This document shows, one piece after another, positions 1,739-62,300 of a stretch of 64,000 nt of DNA. Position 1 is the stretch's first letter. Every line of letters starts with the position of its first letter. The stretch covers positions 1-64,000 of the forward strand of contig JAFCMP010000120.1 in the NCBI GenBank assembly GCA_017506865.1, read 5' to 3'. The stretch comes from Tribonema minus (taxonomy: Eukaryota; Sar; Xanthophyceae; Tribonematales; Tribonemataceae). A program made the position numbers and the translations under genes. The notes beneath the pieces were generated by a model. That model searched no databases, had not been told where the DNA came from, and saw nothing but the letters and a program-made list of their open reading frames with translations.

Positions 1739-1997
1739 ACGTCACTGACCCCACCCGCAAAGAACGCCCAGCCCCACGCCTGACCGTGTGACCATGTCTA
1801 TGTTCAAGTGCATAGGTAGGTACGTATGTCACTGACCTCAACTGCGAAGAATGTCCAGCCCCAAGCCCTGACTGGCAGGTACTCCACGTCAAAGAAGTGA
1901 CTGCGCATCAGCAACAAGCAAGACAGCGCTCAGCGTCAGACCGCCCTAGCCCTAGGTGACTGGCAAGTACTTCACGTCAAAGAAGTGACTGCGCACA
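1739..1997 (-). repeat. Exon-edge echoes around GT2 exon B
   Basis: The donor edge of exon B is copied once at about 1739-1790: the GCTTGGGGCTGG core and GTCAGTGACG are recognisable. The acceptor edge is copied once at about 1953-1997, keeping GCGCAG plus the first ~25 exon bases with two or three changes. Confidence 0.7.
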
Positions 1998-2965
1998 AGG
2001 AGGCCAAACAAGCAAGAAGAAAGCGCTCAGCATCAGGTAGCCCTACCCCTAGGTCAGTGGGCAGCGGTACACTTGAGGGTTCAGCAGGTGGCAACACTGC
2101 ACTTGTGAAGCAAAACTGGGTTAGGGTCAGGGCTAGACTGAACCCTAAGCCTTACCTCAAGCTGCGCTTATCCCACGCTGTGAATGGCGACAAGGGCTTG
2201 AATAGTGCACCTCACAGCACCTGCAAAAATGCGGCCTAACCCTAACCCTAACCCTAACCCTAACCCTAATCTTAGTTGTACACGGTCGTGCCCACCATGT
2301 GTTCAGGGTCGAATGTGCCCCTTCATTATGCATGTGACCTAAAGCACGCCGCCACATGTGACCTTAACCCTGGCCCTAACCCTAGCACTGATTCTAACCC
2401 TTGCCCTAAATCACAGCTAAGGATGCACCATGCAACATTCAAGTCATTCCTGTGAGACTCGGACTTGGATTCACGCTGTGATGCTGATGATGGTCTTGGT
2501 GGCTCGCCAGTACATGTACAAAATGCTGAAGCCGACATCTCATCTGTGCCTACCAGCTATCGCCTCTACGGCAGCTGTGCGCAACACTCATTGGCTGCCT
2601 GTCAGCACGACGCGCGATCTGACGCATGCCGGCTTCCCCCGGGGACATGCTAAAAGTACCCATTCTACACCTGGTCCCCTATTTCTGTAAGACTCTGACT
2701 TGGACTCACGCTGTGATGCTGGTGATGGTCTTGGTGGCTCGCCAGTGCAGGTACAGCATGCTAACTCTAACCCTACCCGTTACCCTATGACACAGCCATG
2801 GGTGCACAATGCAACATCATGTTGCTGCAAGACTCTGACTCGGACTCACGCTGTGATGCTGGTGATGGTCTTGGTGGCGCGCCAGTACAGGTACAGTACG
2901 CTGAATCCGATGTTGGCCGCAATGACAAAGCGCAGCAGCAGGTGCTGAGTCATGGGGCGCGTTTT
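1837..2965 (-). CDS. Family-2 glycosyltransferase, cellulose-synthase-like, partial (two exons)
   Basis: Two minus-strand exons join in phase. Exon A (2965-2850) follows an acceptor reading GTACAG and ends at a GTGAGT donor. Exon B (1900-1837) follows a GCGCAG acceptor and ends at GTCAGT. Exon A encodes a hydrophobic helix followed by LYLYWRATKTITSIT. Exon B encodes HFFDVEYLPVRAWGWTFFAVE up to its last residues. This order (membrane helix, YL-WR-T-T, short spacer, aromatic/acidic membrane helix) resembles the region just before the catalytic domain of membrane-bound processive GT2 enzymes of the bacterial BcsA type, which polymerise glucan from UDP-glucose at the membrane. No catalytic motif (DxD, Q..RW) lies in the window, so the family call is inference from a short region. 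The start codon and later exons are not located, and the gene should continue past the left edge. Both exons have edge echoes in the flanking introns. Confidence 0.5.
2233..2272. repeat. Interstitial telomere-type array (CCCTAA)n
   Basis: Five to six perfect CCCTAA units in tandem, flanked by degenerate units to about 2410. It lies in the presumed intron between GT2 exons A and B and is not at a chromosome end in this window. Confidence 0.9.
2455..2765 (-). repeat. Two donor-edge echoes of GT2 exon A
   Basis: The last ~70 bases of exon A (true copy 2850-2903) with the GTGAGT donor and intron head recur at about 2692-2765 and about 2455-2530. The nearer copy differs at a few bases only. The farther copy is more diverged and keeps a weakened donor. 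Telomere-type CCCTAA words sit between the copies. Confidence 0.8.
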
Positions 2966-3349: not shown

Positions 3350-6300
3350 CTGTACGGAAGGTCAGGCGAGCCATGATGCGCACCATGCTTGCGCGCACGG
3401 GGGAGCACCGAGGGGCAATCGTCAGAGTGCTGAAAATGTGAGACATGGCTGCCGTTGGCATGCCCCTACATACTCAAGGGTCCGGGAACAGAGTGGCGAT
3501 GGCCTTGTACGTATTGCGAATCACACGCTGAACAAGGGCGCAACAAACACCAAATCCTTGCCAGTTGCGAAACGTTGCTGACGTTGGCATATATGCCCCT
3601 ACTTGCCGACGCCTGCTCGTACTGCGAACCACACTACTATGAAGCGCAGACACAAAACACTCGCCAAGTCCAACAAAATTGTTGACATTTGCTGCCTTTG
3701 GCAAACATACCCCTACACACCTGAGGGTCCGGGAACACGGTGGCGACGGCCTTCTTGCCGACGCCCGGCACCTTGGCGCCGGCGGCGCCGAACACTTGTA
3801 CGTCCAACAACATCCATGACAATTGCTGCCGTCACCATATTCCTTCAGCCAAATACTTGTCAGGCCCAACGAACGCTGAAGTGAGAATACCCCTACACAC
3901 CTGAGGGTCCGGGAACACGGTGGCGACGGCCTTCTTCCCAACGCCCGGCACCTTCGCGCCGGCAGCGCCGCCAACGCCGCGCAGCGGCACGCGCGTGGAG
4001 CCCGGCGGCTTGACCGGCGCCGCGCCGCGCGGCCCGAACGGCGACGTGGCCGCCTTGGGCGGCACGACGTACCCGTTTGAAGTTGAGGAAGGTGAAGTTG
4101 ACGCTCCCCCCTGCGGCGACGTCACGCCCTGCTGGTGGTGATTGAGGTGCGCCTGCTGCGGCGTGGCGGCGCCCTGCTCGAAGTGCGTCTGCGGCGGCGG
4201 CGCGCGCGGCTTGCTGACGAGCAGCGACGGCGCCTTGCTGTGCACCTGGCGCCCCGTCAGCGTGCCGGGGCGCAGCGGCGGGCGCGTCGACGGCGACAGC
4301 GCCGCCTGCCAGGGGAGATGTTGAAAGTTCAAGTTGAAATGAGCATCAGGTACTGGGGGTCTGGCATTGTCAAGAGATATAGTGGAAAGTGAGTGTGCCG
4401 GGGCGCAGCGGTGGGCGCGTCGACGGCGACAGCGCCGCCTGCCGGGGGCATGGTTCAAGTCAAAGTAAGCTTTAGTACTGCACCGGCAATGTCACAAGTT
4501 CACGTCGCCGCCTGCGCAGGGCGGTGCGGTTGAGCGTCCGCATCAGCACCGCTCGCGTAAACGGTCGTGGCCTGGGGTTTCTGAGGCTGCTGGTCTGCTG
4601 TGTCCGCAGCAGCGTTTGCATCGACGTAGATGCTATCAGCTTCATGTAGCAGCGGGCGCGTCGCCGGCGACAGCGCCGCCTGTCGGGGGCAATGTTGGAA
4701 GCTCTAGTTGAAGTGAGCATCAGCACAGGGAGCCGCTGGCATCGTCAAAAGCTTCGAGGTGAATGTGAGCGTGCCGGAGCACAGTGGCGTGCGCGTCGAC
4801 GGCGACAGCGCTGCCTGTCGGGGGGCAATTTGAAATTCACGTTAAAGTGAGCAAAAGCCCAAGTTGAATCCGAGCATGCCTGGCTGCAGCGGCGGGCGCG
4901 TCGGCGGCGACAGCGCCGCCTGCCCGCGACCACATTGAAAGCTCAAGCTGAAGTGAGCATCGGCACTGAGGCGCGCGGATGAGCGTAAACATGGTGTCAG
5001 CTGCAGACGTTTGTGTCTTGCAGCATCATCATCACAACGCTGGCTGCTGCAATGTCCTGCTATGTAATTCTGCTATGTACGTGCATGAAAACGCACGCAT
5101 TGGCGTGCGTGGTTTGATGCAGCATCGAGCGTATCAATAGCAATAGCGCCATCAGCAACGGTCCGTGAGTCGCATCGAGAATCAACATCAGGCCGCTGTC
5201 TGCTATGAGTGTGTGTGCCGTAGGCCGCGTGAGCTACCTTCTTGCTGCAATACGACATGCGTAAATGGGTGCAGTGCCGGGCGCAGCAACGGCGCAAGCA
5301 ACACCAGCGTGGTGGTGCGGGGATCGGCGTAGAGCATCAGCGCCGGCTCGCTGCCTGACGTCAATGCTTGCTTAGCCGTGGCCCTAATCCCAACCCTAGG
5401 CAATGTGACACGCTGCCATGTCCTGCATTGTTTGCGCTCCCTCACCTTCTGATGCACGGGACGGGGCAGTAGCGGCATGCCGAGACATGAACACTGACAT
5501 GACACTGTCCAGAGAGATGAGCACAGACCTGGAACTGTATGAGGACGGGCACGCTGTACATGGCTGGCGCGGCGGCACTTATTTTCAAGTATGTCTACTT
5601 TGTTGTGTCAAGCACTGGTCAGGTGAAGCGCGCTTCATCGCATTGAAACACGTCTTGCCAGCACCCCCTCACCTTCTGATGCACAGGGCGCGGCAGAAGC
5701 GGCATGCCGAGCAGCGACGATGGCGTGGCGGGCGGCTTCACGGGGGTCACGGGCACGTCGATCATCGTCGGGCGCTGTCACACGAAGACAGAGACAGAGG
5801 TAGGGTTAGGGTTAGGGTAAGGGGCAATCAGCGGTCACCAGCAGACGGTTCATGAGCCGAATGCCCGATGTATGGCAAGGGAAGGGTTGCATGCATAAGC
5901 TGTGGTGCTCGCGGATACATTTGGGCTGTCAAGTACGCGGTGCTGAGTTGTGCAATTGTTATCTGTCTCGTGAGCGTTCCACAGAGGAGCAGGCTCCCCA
6001 AAGCAGTTGATCTTGCTGGTTGGCTTCCATCGCCTGCGGCTTTTCACCAGCTGCTGTTGACAGCATTCTGTTTGCACAATTCGCAGTACAAAGGGCTGCT
6101 GCCACTGACGCTTTGCCTAAATGTAATCAGCAAGCTGCTTGGGGGCATTCGAGTATTCGATGGTACCATCAGCTCACCAATCCGTGCGCCACCAACACAT
6201 TATCGGACCGCCCCGCCGCAGCCGCTGCCAGCAGCACCGTCCGGCTGCCCCCCCCCTCTTGGCCACAATGAACCCTTGCAACAAGTTGCCTCTAGCATCT

Positions 6301-9300
6301 AACACTTCACATACTTCGAAGTAAAAAAAAAACACACACACACACACACACACACATCAGCTCACCGATCTGTGCACCACCGACACGTTCTCGGGCCGGT
6401 CCGCCGGCGCCGCAGCCGCCGCCGGCGCCGCCGCCGCCGCCTTTGCCCGTGCCGCCGCCGCCGCCGCCGCCACCTTGGGCGCGTTGCGCGCAACCCAGGG
6501 GCGCGCCGCGCGCTGTATGCGGCGCGCAGCGGCGGCGTGGCGCGCGGCGAGCGCGCGGTGCAGCTGCGCGAGGACGCCCTCGCGCAGGAAGACCTTGCGC
6601 GCGCCGAGCTGGTACGCGTCTGGCGCGAGCGTCGCGGCGGCAGCGGCGCGCGCGATGGCGCGGAGCGCTGCGGTCGTTGTGGGGGGCAGAGGGGGGGGGG
6701 GGGGGGGGGGGAGGGTGCAGCACCGGGGTGTGTGGGGGGGGGGGGGTAGGTTGTTTAGTGCGTGTACAGGATGCGCGACAGCTGCAGTATTGATGGGCGG
6801 CCGACATGGGGAGTTTGACGGCGGGGTGTGGGGGTGGGGAGCGGAGGGGTACTGAGGCGGTCGCAAGCGTGCAACTGTTGCAAATCGTCGCGCATGGGGG
6901 AGGGGGGGGGGGGACAAAGGGGGGGGGGGGGGGGGGGGGGGGGGCAAGGGGGGGACAAGGGTGGGGAGGGCTGAGCTGTAGCGCACCTGTCTCACCGTCA
7001 GCGACCGTGGATGCGGCGGCGGTAATGGCGGCTGCAGCGCGTGGCAACGCGCACCTACCTGGTCACGCCGCCAGCACACCGGCGAAACATCACTTTTACG
7101 AGGGACTGCAACGCAGGGCTTCAACTGTTCTCAGCACATGAATAAGGTCAACCGCAGCCTCTTCTGTGCACCTGTCCCAGTGCCGGCGGCGGCGGGGCAG
7201 TGGCGGCAACGACAATGACGGCTGCGACACACCTAATTTGGTGACGCTGCCAGCACAGCGGCGGACTTGAACGACCATCATCCCTTTTCATGCGGGACTT
7301 CAACGCAGCACTCCACAGCACAGATATAAAGATAACCGCAGCCTGTTCTGCGCACCTGTCTCGCTGCCGACGGCGGCAGCAGCGCGTGGCAGCACCTGCC
7401 TGCCCATGCCGCCAGCACAGCGGCAGACCGTAGCGACCACCATCTTTTGTTACGCAGGACGCCAACGCAAGAGTTCAACCGTCCACAGCACCGATGTAAA
7501 ACAAACTGCAGCCTGTTCTGCGCACCTGTCTCGCTGCCGGCGGCGGCAGCGGCGGCGGCGGCGCGCGCGTCGCTCACGTCTCCGAAGCGGCGGCAGAAGT
7601 CTGCGACCGCCATCATGATTTATGTGAGATTTCGACTCTCCACAGCACAGAAGTAAGGTCAGCCGCTCGCAGCACAGAAATAAGGTAAACCGCAGCGGCT
7701 TCTGCGCACCTGTCTCGCTGCCGGCGGCGGCAGCGGCGGCGGCGGCGCGCGCGTCGCTCACGTCGCCGAAACGGCGGCAGAAGTCTGCGAAGGGCAGGCT
7801 CGCGGGGTACGCCTCCTGGCGTATGCGCACTGCCTCTAGGACGCCGCTGTAGCGCAGCTGCTGCACCACCAGGGGGCTGTCCCATACGCCGGGTACCTGC
7901 GTGGATACGGAGGGGGGGGGGGGGGGGGTTACTTCAAAGATAATAATGAACACAAAGAAAAAGAATAGAAAAAGACAGGAAGAAGCATAACACACAGTAG
8001 ACAATGAAAAAGAATATTAAAAGACAAGAAGACGTGTCGAGTAGAATGAATAAACAAGAGAGTGGAGAAAAGTGATAGGTGAGGGGTACGTAGTTGGGTA
8101 AGGGGGGGCAACTTCAAGCACTTGCAGTTGCCGTTGCAGTGGTGCAGGTCGGCATCTCAGCGCTAAGCAGCAAGAGCTAGCCCCCGCATCTATCCCACAG
8201 CTGCACGTCGCACTCACTTCGGCTGGCCTTCGTTTTTACATACATACGGTATTGTGGCTGACCTTCACGTCTTGCATACGAAAGGTACTGTCGCGGCTGA
8301 CCTTCAAGTCGTATTACATCCCGTACTGTTGCTAACCTTCACGTCGTACGTACATGATGCATTGCAGCTGACTGTCACGTCGTCACACGTACGGTATCGC
8401 GGCTGACGTTCCAGGTTTTCATGTCGTATGTATGTACAATCTCGCTGCTGACCTTCAAGTCACCAAGTACATGGGGTATTGTGGCTGACCTTCATGTCGT
8501 TTGGCTTGATGCACTTGATGTTGTGCGTCACCAACTACATGACAACGAATCAAAAAATCGCAGAGCTCTAAGTGACAAGTGTGGCTGGCCGCCAAATCGA
8601 ATGCCTTCCACCAATAACCGTGGCACATACGGTTTTGCGGCTGACCTTCATGTCCTTGGGCTTGATGCACTCGGTGTAGTGCGCCACCAACTACATTAAC
8701 CTGAGTTCGTAATGACCTAAGATATATCATTACTCAAAGTATGACTATTTGTTGAATAGAAGTATGAGACAATTCAGAAGAATTATTTATGATTTCGTAT
8801 CGCGGCTGACCTTCATGTCGTTGGGCTTGATGCACTTGATGTAGTGCAAATAAGTGGGATATCACGGCAATGTAGTGCGTCATAAGCACAGCCACAAGTG
8901 GAATATAATAAAAGTACAACTGGTACCGACAGCTGACTTCATGTCATTGAGCCCGGAGCAGTTCTAGTGCGTCACCAACTACATGCGGTGTCGCGGCTGA
9001 CCTTCATGTCGTTGGGCTTGATGCACTTGATGTAGTGCGGCTGCGTGGCCCCCAGCTGCTCCACGAGGTCATCGAGCTGCTGCTGGAACCGCCCCGAAAC
9101 CGTCATGACGGCGCACCGCGAAGACCCCCCCCTCGCGTCTGCGGGGCTCTCGATACCTGTCAAACAAAAAAGCGCGAGGACCAGAATAGATTTTTTTGTT
9201 GCGAGTTCATAGAATCAGCGAAGAGGATTGGTGTTGAAAACTCGTAGGAAAAACGCACCAAAAAGCGCGAGGACCAGACGAGAGATTCATGTTGTCAAGA

Positions 9301-11130
9301 GTTTATAGGAGCAGAGAAGAGGATTGGCGTCGAAAACTCGTAGGAAAAACGCACCAAAAAGCGCGAGGATCAGATGAGAGATTCACGTCGTCAAGAGTTT
9401 ACAGGAGCGGAGAAGAGACTCCCATAGTTTATCAGGAGAGGCATGCCCACGAACGCATCTCTGCAGGCGCACCACATGCCTTCTGCCAAGGGCCTCACTC
9501 AATACAGTCAAGCAAAGAAGCGCGAGGATCGGATAGAGATTTCTGTCGAGAGTTCATGAGAGCGAAGAAGAGATTTCCCTGCGGCAGCGGCGCCGCCGGC
9601 GCCAGGCTCAGACAGCGCGCGCACGAGCGCCGTGGCGCCTGCCACGACCATCAATTACTGTACGAACTATAAAGTAGCTTCGACCACGTGTGCTGATGCC
9701 ATCACCTCCACCTGCAGCAGGCAGCGCAGGCCACCGTGCCCGTGCGTTCACGCACCTGCGGCGGCAGCGGCGGCGGCGCCGGGCTCAAACAGCACGCGCA
9801 CGAGCGCAGTGACACTCGCCACAACCACCAAATGTTTCAAATGGAACCAACCAGCTTAAAACTACTTCCGTGTCCTGATGCCGTCACCTCCACTTGCAAG
9901 GCAGGCTATCATGTCCGTGCGTTCACGCCCGGCGGCGCCGCCGGGCTCGAACAGCACGCGCACCAGCGCAGTGGCGCCTGCCACAACTGCCAATGACTGT
10001 AGTCAGCAAATAAGCTCAACCATGTGTGCTGATGCCGCCACCTCAGCCTGCCTCGACCTGAAGCAGGCTACGCAGGCCATCCTGCCCATGTATTTACGTA
10101 CCTGCGGCAGCGGCGGCGGCGCTGCCAGGCTCAAACAGCGCTCGCACCAGCGCGCTCGCGCCTGTCGTCGCAAAGAGCTTCCTGAGGTCGCTCTGCAGCG
10201 CCGCGTTGTTCTTCTCCAGGAAGCCTTGGATGCTGTAGGTGACTTGTCCTGCGTAGTGCAGCAGGGTGAACACGCCGTTCTGTGTGGGGGGGGGGGGCAT
10301 GGGGGGGAGCAGTGCGGGGGGGGGGGGAGGAGCGCCGTCAGCCACTTGCACGGAAAATGGTGGATGATGGGCCCCATGTTTTGCAGCAGTATTAACGCAC
10401 CACTCTGCAGGGGGAAGGGGGGGGGGGGGGGAAGTGCCGGTACCGACGGTGAAGTGATTCACCTGTGGCTATGTGACGTACATGGTCTGAGTTGGGTGCA
10501 GCAGGGTGCGCACGCTGCTTTGTCGAGTGTGCGTGTGTAAGTGGGGGGAGGGGGGGGGGGGCGCAGGTTGAGTGCAGCAGCGGCAGTTACTTCACGGACG
10601 TTGCGGGTGATCCGCCCTGCGTAGTGCAGCAGGGCAAAGCCGCCATTCTGCAAGGGGCGTACGCAGGGAGGGGGACACTCACACTTCAGTGGCAACAGTT
10701 TTGGGGCACCACAACTGACGCGAAGCTGTGTCCCTGCACGTCTGTTGCTGTGTCAGAGCAAGGGCAGTGCGAATCAAAGCGATAACACTACTGTAGTGAC
10801 AGTTACTGGTGCAAAACAGTGCAAGCAGCGCCCTCAGCGGTGCAGGCCACCTGCGCCCAACCCTAGCCTCGAACCCTGATTTTAGCGCTGCGCCGCCAGC
10901 ATGTGCACTGTGGCCAGCACAGCAATGAAGAGGGAAGGGAGGCGGGGGGGAGGAGGCGCCGCAGCGCCTATGCGCTGCCGACAATGCCCTAGCCACTACA
11001 CTAAGTGCGCCGCAATTCACAAAGAGCATCAGTGCTCACGCGCACACTCACGTCGTCGCGCGGCCGCTCGTAGCAGCGGTCCGGGCGCGAGCACGCGTGC
11101 TGCCGGTGGTACATGAGCAGCAGCGCGGCG

Positions 11131-11197
<67 letters not shown>

Positions 11198-13174
11198 GCG
11201 CGCCGCGTGCGCGTGATCTTCGAGCAGCGGCAGCAGGCCCACGGGGCGTCCCCCTATGAGCTCTATCATGGGCGTGTTGTCGCGGAAATAGACGGCGGAG
11301 ACGTCAAGTCCCTCGGCGGCATAGAGCGCCTGCTCTCGCACAAAGACGGCCTCGTTGAACTGCCGCTGCAGGACCTCGTTGGCATAGTTGATGCAGAGCT
11401 GCGCAGGGGAGGGGAGGAGCAAGGGGGGGGGGGGGGGGGAGAGTCAGGTGGTGCGGCGGGGGGGGGGAGGGGGGGTTGTTGCAGGACCTCGCTGGCGTAG
11501 TTGATGCAGAGTTGTGCGCGGCGGGGTGGGGGGGGGGGGGGGGGGGGGTCAGGGGGATGCACGGAGGGGGGGAGGGCGGTTGCTGTTGCTGTCTTATGAT
11601 AATTGTGTGATGGCGGGGATGCGGAGACTGGCAGGCCGTGCAGCAAGAAACCCGTACTCTAAGCCTGGCCCGAACCTAACCCTGAAGGCTTAGTTCAGGA
11701 TTGAAGTTTGCTTGCGTCAGCGTGGCGCTGCACGGTCTCGCAGTCGCTACTGAGCGGATACGACTGTACGTTTCTCAGTGAAGTCACGCTTTGTGCTATC
11801 CCTCAGGGCCCTGCAGCTGCGTGAAGCTTCTACTTTGCCCCTATGCTGCTCTGCTTGCAGAACCACTGCAAACAGGCAGCGAGCCCGATTGCCCTGCCTT
11901 GCTAATCAGGTGGGTCACTTGCCTGTTCGAACCCATTCCGCGCCAGCGTCTCAAACCCGAATATGTCCAGGATGCCAATTAAGCTTGTCGCCACCGCTGC
12001 TGCGGCACCGCCGCTGCCGCTGCTGCTGCTGCCGCCGTCGCCCCCGCTGCCGGCAACAGGCGCGGCCAGCGTAACGTTGATCTTGGTGATGAGCCAGGCG
12101 AATAGACGCGCGTACGCCTCCTGCGCGAGAGCGCGCAGGTTGTCACGCGACTGCGCCGCGTTGAGCGGGACCCTGAGGCGGCAGGGCGGCGGTTACAGAT
12201 GCACCGCACCTATCAGTGCCTCACTTCGTGGACATGGGAGATGCATGACGCGGCAAGAGATTGGCGAGATCGGCTGAGCCTCGTTGAGGAGGACCCTGCA
12301 GCGGCAGGGCAGCGGTTGCGAGTGTGTGAGGGCATGTATGTTGCACATGCGGGCATGCACGTATGGATGCGAACGCGACCCAGGACCAGGCGCAATGTTT
12401 GCAGGCTGGCAAGAGTGGCTGGTAGTTCTGGACGGGGACCCAAAGGAGGCAGGGCGGCAGTTGCAGATACAACGCAGCGCCTGCTTGGCTGAGGCAGAGA
12501 GAGGGGTGTTAAGGGCGGGGGCGGGCATGCAGGTGCATCATCCTTCTTTGCATGCATCACCATGATGCCGTTTTGGCCCCTCAGGCGGAAATCAATCAGG
12601 CGCACCAGAGCAGGAGCCACGGTGAGGGGTCCAAGCAGGGGGGCGATCACGCGTGCATACAACTTCAACTCCAACTTCACCAATGTCTCACGTCGTGACG
12701 GACTGCTGCACGCCTCCCGCGGCGACCCAGCGGTGCGTCACTAGGTGCTTGCAACTTCAACTTCAATGTCATGGCTCACGTCGCGACCGACTGCCGCACG
12801 CCCCCGACGGCGGCCCTGAGTCACCCGCGTCTTGAAACTTCAATTTCACCATCATCTTCAACAATTGCTCACGTCGTGACGGACCGCCGAATGCCCCCCA
12901 ACGGCGACCCTGCGGAGCATCACCGCGTGCTTAAAACTGCAACTTCAAACTTCAACTTTGATATAAATTGAACTTCAACTCCAACAATGGCTCACGTCGT
13001 GACGGACTGCCGCACGCCCCCCACGGCGACCCTGCGGTGCGTCACCGCGCGCTCCAGCTCCGCCCACGGCACCCCCCACAGCGCCGCAAACGCGTCGCGC
13101 GTGATGCCCGCGCCGACGCTCATGGCGCAGCCGCCGTTGCCGCCGCCGCCGCTGCCGCCGGTCTGCTGCGGCGG

Positions 13175-13205
<31 letters not shown>

Positions 13206-49400: not shown

Positions 49401-50301
49401 GAGCACTGCCACCAGAGTGTACTCTACCAAAATACAAAGTGTGCTTTGCGTACACTTGCCGTGCTCACGTCGCACAGAGCTCTTTGACAAACCCCTGTAA
49501 GTGAAGGCTCAAAGTTGAAGTGACCACGCACGCCGCGTCGCAGCGCACACAACACCACAGATGACTGCCACAGCGCCCATCCCCCTACTGCGCAGGTGCA
49601 CGCAAGCAAGCGCTGGAAGCGCCTCCACTGTCTCGGCGTGACGGCGCTAAATGTTGAGCCCACGCATGCACGCCGCGTCCCAGCACAACAGTTGAACTTG
49701 CGCCCTCGCATGCGCGCTGCAACGCGGCGTGCACGACACCGCAAATGACCGCCGCAGCGCGCATCCCCCCGCTGCGCAGGTGCACGCGACCAAGCGCTGA
49801 AGCCGCCTCCACGCGCTCCCTCGTGACGGTGCTCACAGTTGAAGTTGAGCTCCGCGCACGCACTGCACGTCCCAGCGCGCACGACACTGCAACTGACTGC
49901 ACTCACAGTTGAACTTGAGCCCGCGCACGTACGCACTGCGACTGACTGCCAACCGCTCACTCCCCCGCACGCAGGTGCACGCAACTAAGCGCTGGGAGCG
50001 CCTCCACGCGCTCGGCGTGACGGCGTCGGCAGTTGAAGTTGACCCTTGTGGTTGCCATGCCACGCACACCGCACCTCAGCATGCTTCACGTACATGCTCA
50101 CATGCTTCAAACGCGCGGCGCTCTCGCGCAGGTGCACGCGACCAAGCGCTGGGACCGCCTGCACGCGCTCGGCGTGACGGCGCTCGCCGTCGTCGCGGAG
50201 CACGGCTTCCTGTGCAGCGCGGGCGCGGACGGTCGTGCCAGGGTCCTCGACCTCGCCCGAGGCACCTCTTTCATGGACCTGCACCACCCCGTGCGCGGCC
50301 G

Positions 50302-50352
<51 letters not shown>

Positions 50353-53300
50353 GAACGGCGCACGCGCGGGTGTATACACTGGTCTCGCATGGGACCTGCG
50401 GCACGAGCAGGTGCGGCGCTGAGCATATCTATTGAATACTTGAAGTACTTTGAAGTATGTATTTCTGATGAACTGGCAAAGCATCACACAGTGTGACCTA
50501 GAAGTGTCAGTGATGGGCGATTGTCATTTGTAGGTACGGCGCCGCAACTTCAACTGCACGTGGTTTGGCGGCGCTGCCGTAAGTATCGTGTGGCAGTGCT
50601 CCTCCGACTGGCGGTCGAACCGCACGGGCACTTTCGGTTGGCGCTGCGTGTTGGTGCTTGTGCGGCTCGCCACCTCTGTCTGTCTCCGCGTGTAAGAGAT
50701 TGGCTCAGTGCATTTGCACAAGCTGAGCAGGGGCAAGGCACATGGTACGTAGGCATGACACGTGCACCAACAAAGTTTGCAGCGTTTCTGGCAGGCCGCA
50801 ATGCACCATAAGGTCAAGACATCCATAGTGTGCTCAATGCGGATTCTGAACGGGTGCAGAGTGTCGTGACTGCAAGACGACCGCGCACACCGTCCGCAGT
50901 ACAAGTAAAGTGCACATCGGGCAGAGATGTCGTTTAGCGATTGTCATTATTGGGCTGGACCGTCATTGAGCTTCGAGACGCTCTATCATCCCAAGGGTAC
51001 ATACACGTGGACTCTGGCAGCAAGTGTGACATCAGTCCTCTGGGCTTGTGTGTGCCCCAAACGAGAATTGACAAGGAGTACATTGCACGCGCGGCATTGA
51101 CTTGGACATCTGACACCGCGTTTCACGACCGCTAATGTGTCTCTGCTGCGCCGTTTCACCGCCGCGACCTCGCCGCCGCACGCGTGCGCGTGCAGCTCAT
51201 GAGCTTAACGTCACTCTGTCATCAGTCATCTGCTCCTTTTCCGCTTCAAGCAATGATCACCCGAAGAATACACTGCGCGCTCTGAACATCAGGCTCCGCA
51301 TTCACTACCGCCTGTTCTGCTGCGAGGTTTCACCGCTGCAACCTCCGCTGCACACGCGCACGCGCTTTGCGTGCAGCTGATTCTGTGTGACGGCTTCGGC
51401 AATGTTGAAGTTTGGAATGCGTACGCGGAGACGCTCCTGCTGCGCAAGCGCGTCGCCAGGCCCCTCGCGCCGCGCGGCGCGCGCGCCGGCGACGCCGTCC
51501 CCGGCCTGTCGGGCGTGCGCGTGTCCGCTGCGGGTGAGTGCGCGCATAGCAGTGCTCAGGCAAAACTCACATTTGAAGTTTATCATCGGGCGCGGGGCGC
51601 ACGCGCCGGCGACGCCGTTGCCCGCCTGTCAGGCGTGCGCGTGTCCACCGCAGGTGAGTGCAGGGCTTATGTGAAGTGTAATTTGAAGTTCGTGTTTGGA
51701 CCTCACGAAGCTGCGCGACGCGTGCGCCGGCGACGTTGTCCCTGGCAACTCGAGCGAGCGCGTGCCTGCCGCGGGTGAGTGATTGCAGTGATCAGTTGAA
51801 GTTCACATTTGAGATATACCTAGTGGCGCGCGTGTGTGGAGATGTCGTCCCCGGCCTATCAAGCGTGCGGGTGTCTGCTGCGGGTGATTGTGGCAGTGCG
51901 CAGTTGAACTTTACATTTGAATTTTATCTCTGGGCCCCAGCGCCGCCTGGCGCCGCGTGACAGTGCCCAGGTGAAGTTTACAGTTGCAGTTTGTATTTGA
52001 CACTCATGACGCTGCGGGACGCCCGCGTGTGGGAGATGCCACTTGCGGCTTGCTGTCAGCGTTACCCAGGTTGACTGTGCGAGGGTAATGTGGGCAATGC
52101 TCAGGGACTCTTTTCGAAAGGTTAACTGGGTTCAGGAGCGGCACAGAAGCATGCTGGCACCTCATGATGGTGATAGATGAGCTACAATGCGTCAAAGATA
52201 AATGCACCCCACCCTTTTTTCCTCCAAATATTAATGGCGCCCCACCCCCCTTTTTTCGCTCTCATAAAAAACTCGCCCCATGGGCTTAATTGTAGGTAAT
52301 TATCATATATATATAAATATGGAATGTGTTCGGCATCACATGGCTAATTGTTGCAGCACCGCATCCGCACCTCTGCTGTCGCTGACCTGAACAGCAGGAG
52401 GGTCTTCTTCTAGGGTTAGGGGTAGGATCACTGTTGAAGCTCATGTTTTCTGAGCTTCCCGCAGCTGTTGCGCAACCGTGGCTACTCCATTGCCGCAGCG
52501 GGCGGGCAGACAGGCGCCATGGTAAGGTTAGGGTTGGGGCGAGCCAGCGCTGCGCACCAGGGTCAGGGTTAGGGTTAGGGTAAGGGTGAGGGTTAGGCAG
52601 TGCCTGGTGTTTTAGGGGTAGGGTTAGGGTTAGGGTTAACTCAAGCCCGCTTCAGGACAGGATTGGGGTTGGGTGAGGGTTCATGTGCAGCTAGTCTACA
52701 CATATGTTCACCTGAGCAAACAAGCAGGCCGTCAAACTGTGTACTGCGCTCAACTACCCTCTGCTGCAGAGGACACAGTCGTCTATGCCCTCAGCCCAGC
52801 GGCAGGCGGCGAGCTGCGCCACAGTGGTATATGGCTATCAACAGGACCCGGGCTGGTGTGATTGCACAGCTCCATGTATGTTGCAATACAGCGTACAGTC
52901 AAACTCCTGTGGCACGGTTGCTTCCTTGTCTTCTGCTGCTGCAGAGGGCGGAGTCGTGTACGCCCTCAGCCCGGCGGAGGGCCGCGCGCTGCACTGGCGC
53001 AGGTCTACGACTAGGTCTAGGGGTGGTGTAAACGCACAGCTCCATGTATATTGCGTTATCAATACTGAAATCATAGCATAAAGTAATACTCTTTGCCACT
53101 TCTCTGCTGCTGCAGAGGGCGGAGTCGTGTACGCCCTCAGCCAAGCGGAGGGCCGCGCGCTGCGCTGCCGCCTAACGGAGCGCCGCGGCTGCCGCCGGCT
53201 CGGCGCGCACGGCGACGCCGTCACGGCCATACTCACGCAGCAGCCGCGGTGAGCATACTTCAAGTTCATACCTTTCAATTTTCAAATGTTTGTACTACGA

Positions 53301-56300
53301 CAGGCAACTTTCAACGGTAGCGTACCAGCTAGCGCTCTGCTACAGCTGTGTGCATAGTCTTGCCGCCATCTCAGTACACATGGCGACGCCGTCACGGCCA
53401 TACTCACGCAGCCGCCGCGGTGAGCAACTTCAAGTACATACCTTTCAATTTATAATGTTTCCATTCTATTCACTTTGCGATGTTCTGTTCGGTTTGCAAT
53501 GTTTTTACACTACGACAGGCAACTTTCAATGCCAGCCTACCAGCTAGTGCTCCGCTACATGTACAGCTGCAGCGCATGTGTGCCTAGTCTTGCGGCTCGG
53601 CGCGCACGGCGACGCCGTCACGGCCATACTCACACAGCCGCCGCGGTGAGCATGCATATTTTTCCAGCGCAATGTATAATTCAGACGTGTCTGCACCGCT
53701 GAAGACATGTATTATTTTCTATGCTGAAGTACGCATGTGCATAGGTAGAACTGCATTCAAGTGCTTTGTTATATACTTTGCTTTGTCATAGCACGGCGAC
53801 GCCGTCACGGCCATACTCACACAGTCCGCGCGGTGAGCATGCATGCCCTCGAAGTGCAACGTATAAGTGCTTAAATATGTACTTTGAAGTATCATAGCAT
53901 GGCGATGTTGTCACGGCCATACTCACACAGCCGCCGCGGTGAGCATGCATATTGTATAATGAAATGATACATGTATGAGGTATATATGAGGTAGATGATA
54001 TATATATATGCTGTGGAGTTCATTTATTTCGATGTACATACATGCGTCACGGCTATACTCACGCAGCTTTCGCGGTGAGCATGCGTGCCCTTGAAGTGCA
54101 ATGTATACCTCATGAATGCTGCGCCTATGATTTCATCTAGAATTACTATGTTCAATACATATATATACTTCTATGTACTTCTGAAGTAGGTAGATCTGCA
54201 TTCAAGTGCTTGGATATGAAAAACTCTAGATCATCATGGCATGGCGACCCCGTCATTGTCTTCACTGTTTGAAATACACGTTGCAAGAGTATGAGCATGC
54301 ACAACCATGCTTCGAAGTATCACAGCATGGCAACGCCGTTGCCGCCGTGCTCACGTGGTCGTGCGGTGTCCATGCATGCCTTCAGGCACACAACCCTAAC
54401 CCTAACCCTAACCCCAACCCTAAGGCACACAACATGTATTCGAACTCACATATGCTTATGCTTTGAAACCTATCATTGCATGGCGATGCCAACATGGCCT
54501 AACCCTAACCCTAACCCTAACCCGACCCCTGCGCTCGCGCTGCCGCAAACCTAACCTTCCTAACGCTGAGGAGAGCACTCATATGCAGGAAGAAATATGA
54601 TCATCGCGTACGGTTGAATTTACATATACTGCACATCAACCATGGTCCAGACACACATCGGCACTACCATACTTTACTGCTGTTATCTCCTAATCATGTA
54701 CAAATGTGTACTCCATGTAGGGTTAGAGTTTCGATTAGAGCTAACGACGCGCACCCGGTGGGCCCTCTCAGCGTGAGAACAGCAGCGCCGGAGGCGGCTG
54801 ATGAAGGGCAGCACAGCATACAACTTCAAGTTGAAATTACAGCGTTCAGAACTACCTCAACCATGACGCTCCGAGCTCACGGTCGCCACGCCACACAATT
54901 TTATTCCTAGTTCACCTGCCGTGCGCACACACACCGGCACGTCCACCACATGCAATTGCTTTCTATGCTAGCCTAGCAGCAATAACTCTGCAACAGCTGT
55001 GTACCTACACTTGCTGGTCAGTGCCAAGCAAGGAGAGACGCACATGCTGCTGCCTCTCCCAGACTCTTTGCAAAAACTTCACCCCTTCAAGGCCAGATCC
55101 ACAAACACTTTACACTCTTTAAGGCCCGTTCCCCGTTTTCTTTCTCGCATCCGGTCACCCTGCTCTCTGCGTGGCGCTTGCAGCGCGACCGCAGCGGACT
55201 TAGGGTTAGGGTAAGCGGACGTCAGCGACAGCGCGGCGCGCGCCAAAACTTCACGCTCTTCATGGCCTGTACCCTGTTTTCTTTCTCGCGTCCGATTGCC
55301 CTGCTCCGTGCGGCGCTCGCAGCGTGACCGCGGCGGACTTAGGGTTAACCCTAACCCCAACCCTAACCCTGACCCTAACCTAACCCCAACCCTAACCCTA
55401 AACCCAACCCTAATCCTACACCTAACCCTGCTCTGCGGCGCTTGCAGCGCGACCGCAGCGGATGCGGACATTAGTTCATCCCTGATTCAATCCCTAGTTC
55501 AACTGCCGCGCACACCGCCACATCCACCATGCAGTCTACACATTTCCCTTCTCACAGCCATTTGCCCTGGTCTCTGCGCGCGGCGCTCGCAGCGCGACCG
55601 CAGCGGATGCGGACGGCAGCGACGGCGCGGCGCGCGGCGCGAGCGCGGCGCAGCACTGCTCCGTGATGACAGTTTCGCTCGACAGCACGGTGCGCGCGTG
55701 GGACGCCGACGGCGACGCGCGGGGGTGGCGCTCCTCGGCGAGCGCTGCCGCCGCCGCCGCCGCTGCAGCGCGTGCAGAAGGTATGTACTTCTATGCATAG
55801 CCAATGTCGCAACTTTGGAGTTTCCTGCCACAGCCGCCGCAGCTGTGGGTGGCGCTGCTCGGCGAGCGTTGCTGCCACAGCGGCGGCGGCGCGTGCAGAA
55901 CGTACATGTGTTTACAAGTTCATGACCGCAGATTTGCTGTATACTGCAACAACTTCAACAGTGGCCAGGGTGGCGCTCTTCGGCGAGCGCTGCTGCTGCG
56001 GCGGCGGCGCGTGCAGAAGGTATATATGTTTGTATGCGCATTCAATAAGTTACTGCAAGTCTGCTGAGTGTTGCAGCGTGTTCGATAGTGGCCAGGTGTG
56101 GCGCTCCTCGGCGAGCGCTGCTGCCGCCGCCGCCGTGGCAGCGCGTGCAGAAGGTATGTATGTGCTTTTGAAGTATTCGTGATCAATGCTGCGGACCTGC
56201 TGCTGGCTGCCGCTGCCGTCGCACCTGCGGAAGGAGTGAGATTGCTTGCTGCCGTCGCCGCAGCAGCAGCAGCATGTGACAAAAAATACCACATGTATGC

Positions 56301-59300
56301 CATGACTCTCACTGGGGGCGTCGCCAATGAAGTTCGTACTGGAATTATTTACTTGTAAGGCTCGACCGTGCAGCTGTGATGTCCACAGCTCACCACGAGG
56401 TGTGGATGCTGCACTATATACCCTTCGAGTATGCAAGTCATCGCATAACCCATTTGCGACGACTTTGTTCAGTGTCAAACACACCCTGTTGGTGCCAACG
56501 CCTGCGCAGCTGCTTACCACAGCCATGCGAAGGCAGAGGTGCCGAGAGGCCAAGCTTGAAAGTACTCGATTAAATGCATGCTGCTGACGAGTTTGCGTGA
56601 TTCAGCGCTCTGCAGGCGCTGCTGACACTGCTGGCGCAGTGTTTACGCATACCATCTCTGCTGCATCTGGAATGTAAAACGCTGCAAACACGTTTTGAAT
56701 AGGACATGCTGAAGGTACCACTGCTGCTGTTTCTTCTATCTTCTTTCAGCGGTCACCATATCATACGGAGCCACCTACCCCCACGTCACAAACGGCACAG
56801 CATCGGCACCGCACAACCCTCGCCCACCATGTCGACTGCCGCCGCTCAGCCCACAGCTGGCCTGGGTGTCCCCCGCAACGCTCAACCTATACCATACTGC
56901 GTACACACCACACTGCATGGTGTACACACATAGGATAAGCACCTTGTGCGCCGCGCCGAGAGAGTGTGCATTCTGTACTGGGCCGTCAAAGTTGCGCCAA
57001 AACGTGTTGGCGTGAAGACAGAGCTCAGTATCAGGGCTTAGAGTTAGGGTTAGCATTAGGGTTAGGGTTTGGGTTACGGCACGAAACTGACCGCACCCCG
57101 TCCGCTCCCCCGGCACAAAATCCCAGTGGACCCCACTAGTGGCCCTTGGCACCCCTCGCCACGCTCAACACACACATACATACCATACCGTATATATGCC
57201 ACGCTCGCGCGCAGACCCTCCCATCGCAGCACACCACAAAACCAAAAAAGGTCTGGCGTCATCGTCATGCGCAACTCTGAACAAGCCGCCTCCGTCGCCT
57301 CCGCCGCCGCCGCTGCCGCTGCCGCTGCCGCTGCTGCCGCTGCTGCCGCGACACCTCAGTGGAGCCCACAGCTGGACTGGGGCGTCCGTCGCAGAGGAAG
57401 TCGGCGTGGAGGCAGCGCTCAACAGCGGCGGCGCCGCCGCGCGCCGCGGCAGATGCGGAACTGGCGTGCGCGTGCCTGCTGCCGGTGGGCCGCGTCCTGG
57501 CGGCAGGGACGGAGGCGGGTGAGCGCGAAACATAGTGTTGAAGTTGTTCCCCGGGGTCCTCCCCTCTCCCTCTTTAGCCCATTGGGGCGTATGTAAATAG
57601 AGGGAGGGGAGTAGTGAAGTTGTGCCCCGGGTACCTGAGCCCCCTGGATGGTATGTAGGTAGAGGGAGGTGCCGCAGGACAAGTCTTGAAGAACCGGCGT
57701 TGTGTGATGTGAGAAGGCAGTGCTATAAAGTGTTGAAGTTGAGGGACATGCGATGTCAACAGCGTTGGGCATGATCGGCTCACGGGGGTTGCACTTGCAG
57801 CCCCACACCCCGGGCGTGGTCAGTATTGGGGCTGAATCAGGGTGAGGTTAGGGTAAGGCTAGGTTTAGGATTAAAGCAAGGCTTTGCATCTCAAGGCATG
57901 CATTTGTTTGACTGCTTTTGGATTCACGACATCTCAGAGTTCATATGCACGAATATAGTGCTGAACTTCACGCCACTGTGTTGCACGAAGTAGACTGATA
58001 TGTCGCATAAAATGAAAAACAGGCTGCGAGTGCGCTGCGACGACAGCGCATGGTTGCACCTGTTGCATCAGACGGCTTTCCTCCTGCCACAGACTAATTG
58101 CTTCTCATGCATTCGCCATTGCTGGGCTCTGCAACAGCTTGTGTGCATGTTGGAGCACTTCGTAGGCTAAAACTAGGCTCACAGCATGCCTGAAAGCACG
58201 CGTCTGCACGTGTTTGCTGCAGCTGGTCGTGACGGCTTCCATAAAACTGTGCTGCATCTGCTCTAACGCGCCAGTGCATGTCAACTCATGGGTTGCATAC
58301 TTCTGAAGTGTGCCATCGTGTATAGACTAAACACAGTCTGTGGCTGAAACCCGAGCTCTTGCTCCGACTCTGGTGATATTGCTGCCCTAATTCCAACCCT
58401 ACAAGCCTCAACCTCACCCTCAACCTCACCCTTGTCCTGACCCTACATGAGCACCACGCGCACCGCAAGCGACGTGCAGTTCCAACCCTAACCCTAACTC
58501 TAACCCTTATTCCACACTATCACCTACACTGCACGCGCACCGTAGGCGCCATGCTTGCCATCTTGCTGCCCTGCCCGTCACCTCAGCCCCAGCCCTACTC
58601 CCAACGCAAGCTTCAACCCTACTACTTGTCTTAGTTCTGGTTGACCCTAACCCTGCGTCTACGTCCGGATCACCGTTCCTACAAGCACCCTCACCCTAGC
58701 CCTAACACCAACGTTACTCCCAACGTGAACTTCAGACCTAGCCCTTGTCCTGACTCTGACCCCAGTCCTGAATCTAATCCCAGACAATCACCCCTATTGC
58801 GCGCACGCTGCAGGCGACGTGCAGTTCTGGATGCTGGGCACGAGCACCTGCACAGTGCACGCTGCGCACGCCAACACCGTCAGCGCCATTGCCGCGGGGG
58901 AGGACGCATCGTGCGGCGATGTAAGTCAATGAGCAGAATTACATGGTTTGACTTAGCCCTGACCAAATTACTCTGCACAGTGCTCGCTTCGCACAGCAAC
59001 ACCGTCAGCGCCATCGCTGCGGGGGAAGACGCATCGTGCGGCGATGTGAGTGTAAAGATTGTGCTTCAAGTACTGGATAATGTAGCCCTAACTAAAGTAC
59101 TCCAAAGTCAGCTGAGGGACAGCAGTTCGGCCGAGGCACAGTGCTCAACACTGTCAGCGCCATTGCCGCGGGGGAGAATGCGTCGTGCGGCGATGTGAGT
59201 CTAACGACTACATAATGTGACGGTGCCCCAACCAAAAAGCTTTAGGGCCCCAGCCGTAGGTTGAAGTTAGGCTTGCACTTACTGTAGGTTCATGGCTGAG

Positions 59301-62300
59301 GCACAGATGCCAACAGCGTGGGCGCCGTCACCGTGGGGCAAGACGTGTCGTATGTGAGTCTACCGATTTGTAGTACATGGTTTGATGTAGCCCTGACAAC
59401 TTTACTCTAGGGCTCAGCTGAGGGCTGAAGTCAGGCTTGAAGTTAGGTTTGCGGCTGAGGCACAGTGCTCAACACCGTGGGCGCCATCGCTGCGGGGGAG
59501 GACGCGTCGTCATGCGGCGATGTGAGTCGTTAGAAACGAACCCTAGCCCTACCTCATGTTCAAGTGGCAGCTGAGAGTTGAAGTCAGGCTCATGGCTTGG
59601 GGCTCAGTGCTTAACACCAAGAGCGCCATCGCTGCGCGAGAGGACGATCATATACTGTCATTGCAGCCCTAACCCAAGTACACTGAGGACAGCTGAGGGA
59701 TGGCATTACGGCTGGGGGCACAGTGCTCAACACCGTCAGCACCATCACCAGGGGGGGACACGCCGTGTGGTGATAGGACTCTGAACAACCCCAACCCTGT
59801 TTCAAGTCTAGGGCCAGCTAAGGGTTGAACTGAGGGCTTTCGGCTCAAGGCACTGCACTGGATCACGCTGCGTTGACCGTTGCAGCAGGGGTACCGTACG
59901 CCCTACGCTGGCTGTAACCTCTAACCCTGACAGCCGCTCTCAAAGCCTCACAGGAGACGGCTGATGTGTTGCAGCCAGCCTTGACTCTAACCCTAACCCT
60001 GAGCCTGATCCTTCCGGCTGAACTACAGAGCAAGATTTTATACTCTGTGGGTACTCTCATCCTGCAGTGCTCGCCTCCTCTGCGTGCACTACATACATGC
60101 ATACCCTCTTAGTGCTGCAGTGCTCATCATGTCGGCTGCGCTACCTACATGTATACGTGCGCGTCCCATGCACCAGCGCTCACCACGGCCGCACCACATG
60201 CCTACACGGTCGTGCAGATTCTGCTGCATGACTTCATTGTTTACGGTAATCCTCATCCTGCAGTGGTCCTCACCGCGGCTGGCACTGCATAAATTCAAGT
60301 ACGGCATGCCCCTGGTGCTGCAATGCTCCTCATCTTAGCTGCACTACTATACATGCATACCCCATTGCGCCGCAGTGCTCACTGCGGCTGCGCCACACAC
60401 CTTACATCCCTGCAGATTTTGCTGGCAACGGGGTCTTACGATGGCGACCTGGCGCTCTGGGGTCTGCACGCAAAAGACGGGCCCGTGGCGAACAGGTGAG
60501 TCACCGGTGACGTTAAAGCTTTTCACATCCAACTTGTAACAGATTTGACAGAGGTGTAAGCACGTGAACTATGAGGCAGCACACCAGGCACGGCCGTGTT
60601 CGCAACCGGCGCGTCACTTGTTGAACACAATGATACTTCAAGAAGTACTTGATGAGCTGTTCACGGCCGAAGTAGTTTGAAAGCAGGAAGGTCACGGCGT
60701 AGACTCTTGTACTTCAAAGGATAGACACAAACACTCGATGCCGACGTCGATAGGTTCACGTGGCCTGCAGGCGATTACGCTGCAGCTCGAATGCGCCGCG
60801 CAGTCTGCTGATGTGGAGCAGCGCATGGCGGCTGCACACCACCGTCGAAGGGCTGAGCACTGCTGCTTACTCATCGACCGCTGCTGCTGAGCGACCAGCG
60901 CAGCACGGCCCGCATCCGTCTAGAGTGCCACCTCGGAGCTTCCAAACCTGTGCTGGATGGTACCCTCTGCGCTTTTGTCCACTCGCGCAAAAAAGGTGCT
61001 GCACGGGCGCCAAAGAACTTGGAGCAGCGCATTTTGCTACCGCACTTGTCTGCACGTGGTCACGCACCGCTGCGGGACCGTTGAGCGCTGCTGCTACACC
61101 AGCATGGCGAGCCCAGCAATACATACTTACGCCTCTGACCTCACGTCTACGCGTGAACACGCGCCGCGCGTGCAGGCTGCCCAAGCTGGAGCAGCGCGTC
61201 GCAGGCGCGCACGGCCGCCGCGACGCTTCGTTGAGCGCTGCTGCCGCTGCGACGCCGCTGAGCGATGCTGCCGCCCTCGTGGACACGGAGGTGCTGGCGC
61301 TGGCATTCGTGGGCCGCGCGGGCCTGCTCGCGTCCGGCGGCAACGACGGCGCCGTGCGCTGCTGGTGCGCACGGTCGCGGCGCCGCCTCGCTGAGCTGGT
61401 CCCGGTGAGGCTCGGTTAGGACTGTTGGTGGTAGCGGTAGGATCTGGGTCAGGAGTAAGATTAGGGCTAGGATTAGGGTCGGCTGGTAGTTGCATCCGGC
61501 GGCAACGACGGCGCCGTGCGCTGCTGGTGCACGCGGACGCGGCGCCGCCTTGCCGAGCCTGCTCCGGTGAGCATCTCTCAGGGCTGATGGTGGTAGCGCT
61601 AGCACTGGGGTCAAGGGCAGGGTTAGGGTTAGAGTCAGGGCTAGGTTCAAGTTATCTTAAAAAGGTTTGTGGGTTGCGCCGGAGAGCTCGCGTCTGGCGG
61701 CAACGACGGCGCCGCGCGGTGCTGGCGCGCGCGGTCGTGCCGCCACCTCGCAGAGCTGGTCCCGGTGAGGGTTCTGCCAGGGGCGGTTGTAACGTTAGGG
61801 TCAGGGTCAGGAGTAAAATTAGGCTTAGGATTAGGGTAGGTTGGTAATTGCGTCCGCCGGCAACGATGGTGCCGTGCGGTGCTAGGATTAGGGTTAATTT
61901 TAGGTAGCTTGTTAGCGGGGCGGGCCTGCTCGCATGCGGCGGCCATGGAGTGCTGCCTGGTGCGCGTGGTTGCGGCGCCGCCTCGCGGAGCTTGTCCCTG
62001 TTGGGACTGGTGGCAACGTCAAGGTCAGGGTCAGTGTCAGGAATAGGGTTGGTAGCAGAGTTGGGGCTAAACTTGGGTTGTTGGGGTAGGGTTAGGTTAG
62101 CGTTAGTATTAGAATTAAGCTTTATCGGCCACGCTGGACTGCTCGCGTCTGGCGGCAATGACGACGCCATGCGGTGCTGGCGTACGGCCGCCATAGTATT
62201 TAACAGAGCTTGCACCATTAGGGTTAGAGTCATGAACGTGCTAGGATTGCGGCTAGGGTTAGGGTTTGGGCTAGGGCTAGGCAGCGCCTTGCGCAGACGA

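Follow-up and report, generated by a model that had tools for sequence, protein, structure and literature searches.

Arrays of exon-edge copies in the introns of Tribonema minus and their probable origin by local duplication across splice junctions

How does an intron become long? The question is raised by a stretch of the genome of Tribonema minus (Xanthophyceae) in which introns contain decayed tandem copies of the exon edges beside them, splice site included. To our knowledge, intron lengthening without transposons is poorly documented. The stretch, hereafter the window, is the first 64 kilobases (kb) of contig JAFCMP010000120.1, from an assembly (GCA_017506865.1) of 158.2 Mb in 554 contigs. 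A reading of the sequence alone, which we call the original prediction, had placed such copies in four unrelated genes on both strands and attributed them to repeated local duplication across splice sites. Both strands do carry them, but three genes with copies can be named, not four: the reverse strand holds the genes for myosin and Nup85, the forward strand that for a WD40 protein. The evidence set out below indicates that the long introns probably grew by recurrent local, head-to-tail duplication of units that straddle a splice junction.

We compared exon edges with introns using 60-base-pair (bp) probes and a score of at least 40, a search to which repeats of 4-12 bp are invisible. In the three genes, 29 of 62 exon edges had a copy in their own same-side intron. 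This is in contrast to the wrong-side intron of the same exon, which matched for 1 of 56 edges, and to the non-adjacent introns of the window, with 4 matches in 1748. The edge's own intron gave 1 match in 62 when reversed and none in 62 when reverse-complemented. Together these controls exclude a chance origin of the copies. The final set comprises 80 copies belonging to 29 of 60 edges (18 donor and 11 acceptor edges, each with one to eight copies) and lying in 22 of 30 introns; the other eight introns of the window lack any copy at score 40. The original prediction of at least 25 copied edges, and of a same-side excess over non-adjacent edges and control introns, was thus borne out.

Comparison of the window with itself returned 187 direct repeat pairs and 3 inverted ones, confirming that the local repeats are overwhelmingly direct, and 185 of the 187 direct pairs are spaced 83-1413 bp apart. 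Matches become fewer deeper into the exon. When 40-bp donor probes (score at least 32) were placed 0-40, 40-80, 80-120 and 100-140 bp into the exon, matches were obtained for 20/30, 11/30, 1/24 and 0/23 edges, against 2, 0, 0 and 0 once the introns were reversed. For acceptor probes at the same distances the figures were 14/30, 4/30, 1/24 and 0/23, with 0, 0, 1 and 0 after reversal. Homology stops abruptly on the exon side of the copies. As had been described from the sequence alone, donor arrays consist of exon tail, donor and intron head, and acceptor arrays of intron tail, acceptor and exon head, both with clean exon-side ends. The two kinds do not mix: the 47 families of local repeats in the window divide into 20 with a donor edge, 17 with an acceptor edge and 10 lacking either, and no family has both. 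Where one intron holds both kinds of array, which is the case in seven, the donor copies always lie 5' of the acceptor copies. One of the ten families with neither edge is found in myosin intron 2, where positions 16987-17028 copy an exon stretch (16818-16859) some 50-91 bp in from the acceptor edge; the junction is not part of this copy.

The unit that is copied has a characteristic size. In the window its exon part measures 38-117 bp on the donor side, with a median of 64, and 23-70 bp on the acceptor side, with a median of 55, whatever the length of the exon, and the spacing between copies ranges over 83-609 bp with quartiles of 129-186. We also analysed a genome sample, one 10-kb piece from each of 20 other contigs, using predicted exons with a score of at least 8; at a threshold of 36, the exon part there is 23-75 bp and the spacing quartiles are 118-165 bp. 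Window and sample together provide 45 nearest edge pairs; in 21 of them the repeat fills 80% or more of the spacing, which is to say that a whole unit stands head to tail. The original prediction had called for a comparison of intron length with copy number, and length indeed rises with it (Spearman 0.59, p 0.0005, 30 introns), the arrays accounting for 36% of intron length. Whole-unit repeats and the dependence of length on copy number together support its inference of repeated local duplication across splice sites.

Two units in the sample look young. In piece L012 a sequence of 375 bp occurs twice (2515-3265) at 97.6% identity, spanning a predicted acceptor, and the join shares at most one base; a larger group of exons in the same gene also appears to be duplicated. 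In piece L004 a complete unit is repeated at a spacing of 118 bp, with 104 of 106 aligned bases identical and 10 gap columns. In the window, at myosin intron 9, the exon sequence GCACTACATC and the intron sequence GCACTAGAAC have six bases in common near the apparent join of the unit. The ungapped homology profile of the copies steps down at donor position +7 (0.89 before, 0.61 after) and, for acceptors, near -4. This step could be taken to mean that the exon edge and splice signal alone are copied, a reading we set aside: given that roughly every second nearest pair shows the intron half to have been copied too, the step mostly marks the end of constraint on the used copy.

These results depend on the exon boundaries, which were obtained in two ways. 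The 13 exons of the WD40 gene were chosen by eye from open frame and splice signals while the copies were visible, with phase serving as the check; all 12 exon joins are in phase and yield a single open frame of 684 amino acids. The myosin and Nup85 genes were modelled with a codon-bias and splice-signal model blind to repeats, followed by hand fixes from protein logic. This model was seeded with the WD40 exons and afterwards self-trained, and it recovers 11 of the 13 WD40 exons with identical edges. Both genes that it found have Pfam and Protein Data Bank (PDB) matches. The six joins of Nup85 retain an open frame of 741 amino acids. Once joined, the protein has a match to PF07575 at 5.6e-28 that extends over residues 2-506 and across the exon joins, compared with 1.4e-08 for the reading frame in which the first exon lies. 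One Nup85 exon is doubtful: as 30959-31039 it is in frame but lacks GT and AG, and shifting it to GT/AG breaks the frame. It is still present in the 62-edge control set and was omitted from the final set of 30 introns and 60 edges. Splice signals are otherwise regular, with donors resembling CAG|GTGAGC and acceptors resembling GCAG|G. Myosin intron 6 is a GC-AG intron, with the donor CAG|GCAAGT at 11921-11922 on the reverse strand. In a myosin motor exon (11052-11398), also on the reverse strand, the homologous frame shifts after a long (GCC)n run, a change that may stem from misassembly, from polymorphism or from a genuine frame break.

The copies are not peculiar to the window. In the sample, 11 of 134 predicted exon edges had a copy at score 40, and 15 of 134 at score 36, although a few of the predicted exons may themselves be copies (for example L012 2616-2858). 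The corresponding controls gave 0/134, 0/134 and, for non-adjacent introns, 0/2010. At score 40, introns under 400 bp had a copy at none of their 52 edges, those of 400-800 bp at 1 of 30 and those of 800 bp or more at 10 of 52. The claim that nearly every long intron carries copies therefore describes the window, with its 22 of 30 introns, and does not extend to the genome sample. Local repeats in the sample are again mostly direct (122, against 18 inverted) and form 56 families: 24 at exon edges, 16 in introns, 14 in unlabelled DNA and 2 exonic. The 40 families in or at introns lie in 62 kb and the 14 others in 103 kb, making introns 4.7 times denser, an excess that stands even though unlabelled DNA must contain missed introns. 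Local direct repeats cover 22-41% of the six 10-kb parts of the window and 0-39% of the 20 pieces, 12 of which have at most 10.2%. Exon-edge copies thus occur beyond the window, yet the window is rich in them.

These data allow us to propose a mechanism by which the introns lengthened. The gene models use the first donor and the last acceptor of each intron, and frames stay open through them; use of a copy instead would leave an open frame in 3 of 80 cases and would shift or stop the frame in the other 77. We suggest that introns were short at the onset. A unit of about 110-190 bp straddling the junction, with about 25-100 bp of exon edge and about 50-150 bp of intron, would be duplicated, perhaps by replication slippage or break repair, leaving the donor (or acceptor) in two copies. 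With the outermost pair of sites, first donor and last acceptor, kept in use, the protein would be the same and the intron one unit longer. The inner copy would then be free to decay, and repetition of the event could give arrays of up to eight. Duplications lying wholly within exons, or carrying an entire exon, would alter the protein and be mostly purged, and because of this no copies with both edges would be expected. Duplication is supported as an explanation of the side, orientation, spacing and exon-side ends of the copies, and of the open frames through the outermost sites.

The decay of the copies partly agrees with this. In the 21 whole-unit pairs the exon halves differ by a divergence of 0.137 and the intron halves by 0.256, a ratio of 1.87 (bootstrap 1.57-2.41) that is measurable only where the intron half is still alignable, which favours low values; it is 2.04 in the window and 1.63 in the other pieces. 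A neutral ratio of about 2 is expected because the used exon is constrained, the used intron is free and the copy decays freely. Mismatches in exon copies amount to 0.187, 0.186 and 0.26 at the three codon positions (79 of the 80 copies, the myosin exon with the frame break being excluded), and given that positions 1 and 2 diverge equally, the copies do not evolve as protein-coding sequence. Identity tends to drop with distance from the used edge, as it does in 12 of the 17 arrays that hold at least three copies.

Several observations weigh against the duplication account. In addition to the restriction of the ratio to alignable pairs, one of the 21 pairs (L018) is an array with a 90-bp period that overlaps a predicted exon. 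For 24 of the 45 nearest pairs the BLAST alignment accounts for under 80% of the spacing and mostly takes in the exon edge alone, and 5 of the 17 arrays do not lose identity with distance. More serious is a decoupling of the two halves: over all 80 pairs of real edge and copy, the intron-half score stays at 0.09-0.25 in every bin of exon-half score and is nearly independent of it, whereas in a neutral simulation of tandem duplication it climbs from 0.05 to 0.83, or to 0.43 when introns evolve four times faster. The decoupling recurs in the 20 pieces, where the four best pairs depart from it (0.48), and it persists when the comparison is made without gaps. Gap columns make up 1.7% of exon halves and 12.9% of intron halves, a more than twofold difference, and the exon-side extents are narrower than random placement yields (Kolmogorov-Smirnov p 1e-4). 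Anchored identity estimates (exon 0.86, intron 0.66, unrelated sequence 0.55 and 0.51) point in the same direction as the decoupling; one gapped estimate with lenient gap costs flatters unrelated sequence and was not relied on. The decoupling and the excess of gaps imply that exon halves are refreshed by gene conversion or constrained, or else that change in the intron halves is exceptionally rapid. Two routes come into view: indels and nested duplications may reshape the intron halves faster, or the exon may restore the exon halves.

The second of these options would add ectopic gene conversion to duplication, the used edge refreshing the exon halves of old copies. We regard this as a tentative possibility. 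It would account for the decoupling, which is seen in copy-copy pairs as well as in real-copy pairs, and for the fact that nearer copies are not always more similar: in myosin intron 3 it is the fourth copy that is closest to the real edge, an exception to decay with distance. Plain neutral decay nevertheless suffices in the whole-unit pairs, and a greater number of indels and nested duplications may alone reshape the intron halves.

We then considered whether the junction is itself a duplication hot spot, through breaks linked to transcription or splicing or through a unit of nucleosome or Okazaki-fragment size anchored on the exon. The original prediction held that random repeats would not respect splice junctions so consistently, and 37 of the 47 window families (79%) do span one, as 24 of the 56 sample families include a real exon edge. 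For a median unit of 162 bp, random placement would yield 18% at present intron lengths, or 30% if spanning families are visible for twice as long, and 26% and 40% once the arrays are removed. With introns of 250 bp, the expectation becomes 64%, or 78% with doubled visibility, which matches the observed value. Placement in both window and pieces, which for an ordinary minisatellite would bear no relation to gene structure, thus exceeds the random expectation at present intron lengths and does not at 250 bp, a length not exceeded by 23 of 67 introns in the 20 pieces. Given that short starting introns can account for the excess, targeting of the junction is not proven, and the part of the prediction that placed respect for junctions beyond chance is borne out only in part.

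Other features are consistent with a hot spot, namely the limited exon extents and spacings, the higher density of families in introns, and the gene ends, which are exon edges too: copies were found at 0 of 16 outer gene edges in the sample and at 1 of 7 gene ends in the window (score 42), the latter read as a simple GCN repeat. Only a few gene ends could be tested, however, and selection on the spacing of competing sites could equally narrow the extents. Moreover, the completeness of units is equal in edge pairs and in other pairs: the idea that edge arrays are less complete as tandems was unsupported against repeats in unlabelled DNA (Mann-Whitney p 0.84) and against these together with introns free of copies (p 0.69). 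The narrow exon extents, the intron excess and the scarcity at gene ends lead us to lean towards a junction effect or selection on competing-site spacing, and we hold hot spots proper to be doubtful. Should junctions be true hot spots for nucleosome-sized duplication and conversion also refresh the exon halves, introns would turn into long ladders of near-consensus decoy sites and exon definition would be forced on the spliceosome by the mutation process; we think this combination rather unlikely.

A further alternative is that selection keeps the copies, for instance because they serve as decoy sites and so retard or modulate splicing. The median score of copied donors, 5.86, comes close to the 5.99 of the real donors (0.38 for all intronic GT), copied acceptors score 4.86 against 5.88 with a background of -0.70, exon halves are better kept than intron halves, and there is a weak trend to sites stronger than drift predicts (p 0.07 and 0.05). 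Retention of the dinucleotides nonetheless matches drift: among the 56 of 80 copies in register, to which this test is limited, GT is kept in 34 of 40 (drift predicts 31.5, p 0.22) and AG in 15 of 16 (13.4, p 0.25). The near-twofold divergence ratio of whole-unit pairs needs no selection, and copy number and side differ between introns. Selection on the copied splice sites was thus unsupported by the drift test, and we consider it improbable.

That the copies are ordinary alternative or duplicated exons is very improbable. The repeat in L012 could be an in-frame exon extension, and the gene model gives several copies low exon scores, but no window family carries both edges, codon positions 1 and 2 diverge alike, and nearly all copies would shift or stop the frame if used. 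Least credible of all is an origin from introners, or from transposons of another kind in which splice sites are incidental. While introners create introns in many lineages (PMC9860276), the copies here are private to one edge, as the non-adjacent comparisons show, and just 3 of 190 repeat pairs in the window are inverted, short terminal repeats and target-site duplications, which mark some introner families, not having been sought. Dispersed elements were also considered as the units themselves; the window contains two dispersed repeats and one palindrome, and none of them is an exon-edge unit.

Duplication across exon-intron structure has precedents. Gao and Lynch reportedly described, in 2009, internal gene duplication in which tandem duplication across exon-intron structure gives rise to duplicated exons or whole introns and to intron creation. 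Introns can also be gained through tandem genomic duplication, as in the Rogers model, a route accepted in a review (PMC3443670), and a passage on the potato RdRp gene reports that tandem duplication across one intron-exon boundary created a new intron (PMC4974935). The likeness, as far as these excerpts go, lies in tandem duplication of exon or boundary sequence, which we find in the whole-unit pairs. In the potato case as excerpted, the new intron uses both copies, whereas here an existing intron is lengthened, by up to eight copies, with the frame running through the outermost site; our gene models contain no new intron that uses the splice sites of two copies. Young Daphnia introns, as presented in the portion of PMC4202315 seen, hold internal direct repeats after staggered breaks and are proposed to lengthen passively. 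They resemble the introns described here in having local direct repeats inside introns; the Tribonema units differ, on that portion, in being about 110-190 bp long, in including a splice site and in lying on the same side as their source edge. Introners, in the excerpt of PMC9860276, share the repetition of intron sequence genome-wide but are dispersed mobile families, whereas the Tribonema copies are private to one exon edge. In the passages covered, PMC2809761 and PMC8469720 treat other routes of intron gain. Within the titles, abstract openings and passages covered, we found no report of an intron that holds an array of copies of its own exon edge. Isolated duplications across a junction are known.

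The positions of the arrays are collected in Table 1. The window holds several other repeats. A palindrome of about 590 bp (29069-29657, 79.5% self-complementary, with a (TA)n stretch) sits in a Nup85 intron beside acceptor and donor arrays and resembles a fold-back element. A dispersed repeat of about 80-105 bp, resembling a miniature inverted-repeat transposable element, occurs in both orientations at 8544-8623, 25196-25300 and 33330-33433, and in myosin intron 9 one copy of it separates two of the donor-edge copies. Another small dispersed repeat, at 1384-1456 and 35183-35255, is in inverted orientation. Telomere-like CCCTAA/TTAGGG stretches are interspersed in introns and non-coding DNA (2235-2269, 14744-14784, 16016-16089, 17876-17946, 55346-55429 and others). 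At 9164-9417, beside a myosin acceptor, an intron tandem array of about 96 bp in 2.6 copies contains almost no exon sequence, and local direct repeats are found downstream of the last modelled myosin exon (1708-1872, 1869-2060 and 2394-2910). The window also holds an intronless gene for an MMtag protein (Pfam) at 37535-38863. Among the best 120 of 506 matches to this protein, an environmental protein comes first (62%), followed by stramenopiles: Chrysoparadoxa australica, at 63% identity with 37% of the query aligned, together with oomycetes and brown algae.

Table 1. Exon-edge copies in the introns of the three genes of the window; each copy is given by its edge base.
Gene and intron	Edge	Span	Strand	Exon or exon base	Copies	Remarks
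Myosin intron 1	donor array	18876..19431	-	19264-19431	19094, 19011, 18876	
Myosin intron 1	acceptor array	18288..18783	-	base 18288	18410, 18530, 18647, 18783	
Myosin intron 2	donor edge	17958..18094	-	base 18094	17958	single copy
Myosin intron 3	donor array	15383..16909	-	16725-16909	16594, 16486, 16283, 15959, 15828, 15734, 15522, 15383	8 copies; exon ends with P-loop IVVSGESG
Myosin intron 4	acceptor edge	13627..13747	-	base 13627	13747	single copy
Myosin intron 5	donor array	12692..13627	-	12996-13627	12873, 12780, 12692	
Myosin intron 6	acceptor edge	11398..11511	-		11511	single copy; GC-AG intron
Myosin intron 8	donor array	9579..10279	-	10102-10279	9917, 9756, 9579	
Myosin intron 9	donor array	8490..9156	-	9002-9156	8811, 8646, 8490	
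Myosin intron 10	donor array	7356..7896	-	7710-7896	7526, 7356	
Myosin intron 12	donor edge	5446..5774	-	5673-5774	5446	single copy
Myosin intron 12	acceptor array	3901..4919	-	3901-4305	4438, 4679, 4814, 4919	
Nup85 intron 2	donor array	31156..31868	-	31657-31868	31485, 31347, 31156	
Nup85 intron 3	donor array	29658..30314	-	30061-30314	29925, 29789, 29658	
Nup85 intron 3	acceptor array	27620..28503	-	27620-27709	27894, 28503	more units to ~28965 by BLAST
Nup85 intron 5	donor array	25452..26492	-	26240-26492	26051, 25883, 25744, 25622, 25452	
WD40 intron 1	donor edge	44355..44673	+	44355-44496	44673	single copy
WD40 intron 1	acceptor array	45301..45956	+	45789-45956	45659, 45301	plus two weaker copies
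WD40 intron 2	donor edge	45956..46288	+	base 45956	46288	single copy
WD40 intron 2	acceptor array	46647..47157	+	47053-47157	46888, 46647	
WD40 intron 4	acceptor array	48531..49202	+	49040-49202	48845, 48704, 48531	
WD40 intron 5	acceptor array	49596..50410	+	50132-50410	49975, 49780, 49596	
WD40 intron 7	donor array	51377..51883	+	51377-51533	51653, 51774, 51883	
WD40 intron 7	acceptor array	52770..53248	+	53116-53248	52945, 52770	
WD40 intron 8	donor array	53248..54074	+	base 53248	53419, 53645, 53832, 53938, 54074	
WD40 intron 8	acceptor array	55195..55780	+	55593-55780	55448, 55195	
WD40 intron 9	donor array	55780..56153	+	base 55780	55901, 56019, 56153	
WD40 intron 10	donor array	58814..59521	+	58814-58920	59045, 59194, 59521	
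WD40 intron 12	donor array	61176..61999	+	61176-61404	61566, 61764, 61999	

The arrays also bear on how splice sites are chosen. Judged from the sequence, splicing would ignore the inner copies, and exon definition is the likeliest reason: it would explain the choice of site at both ends of the intron, whereas a rule by which the first site transcribed is used fits the donors and not the acceptors. One genome displays the steps of the process side by side, from young whole-unit duplications, through ladders of up to eight copies, to old copies that can be aligned little beyond the exon edge. The arrays amount to a natural experiment in splice-site choice, in which 22 introns of the window carry close copies of real sites together with their exonic context.

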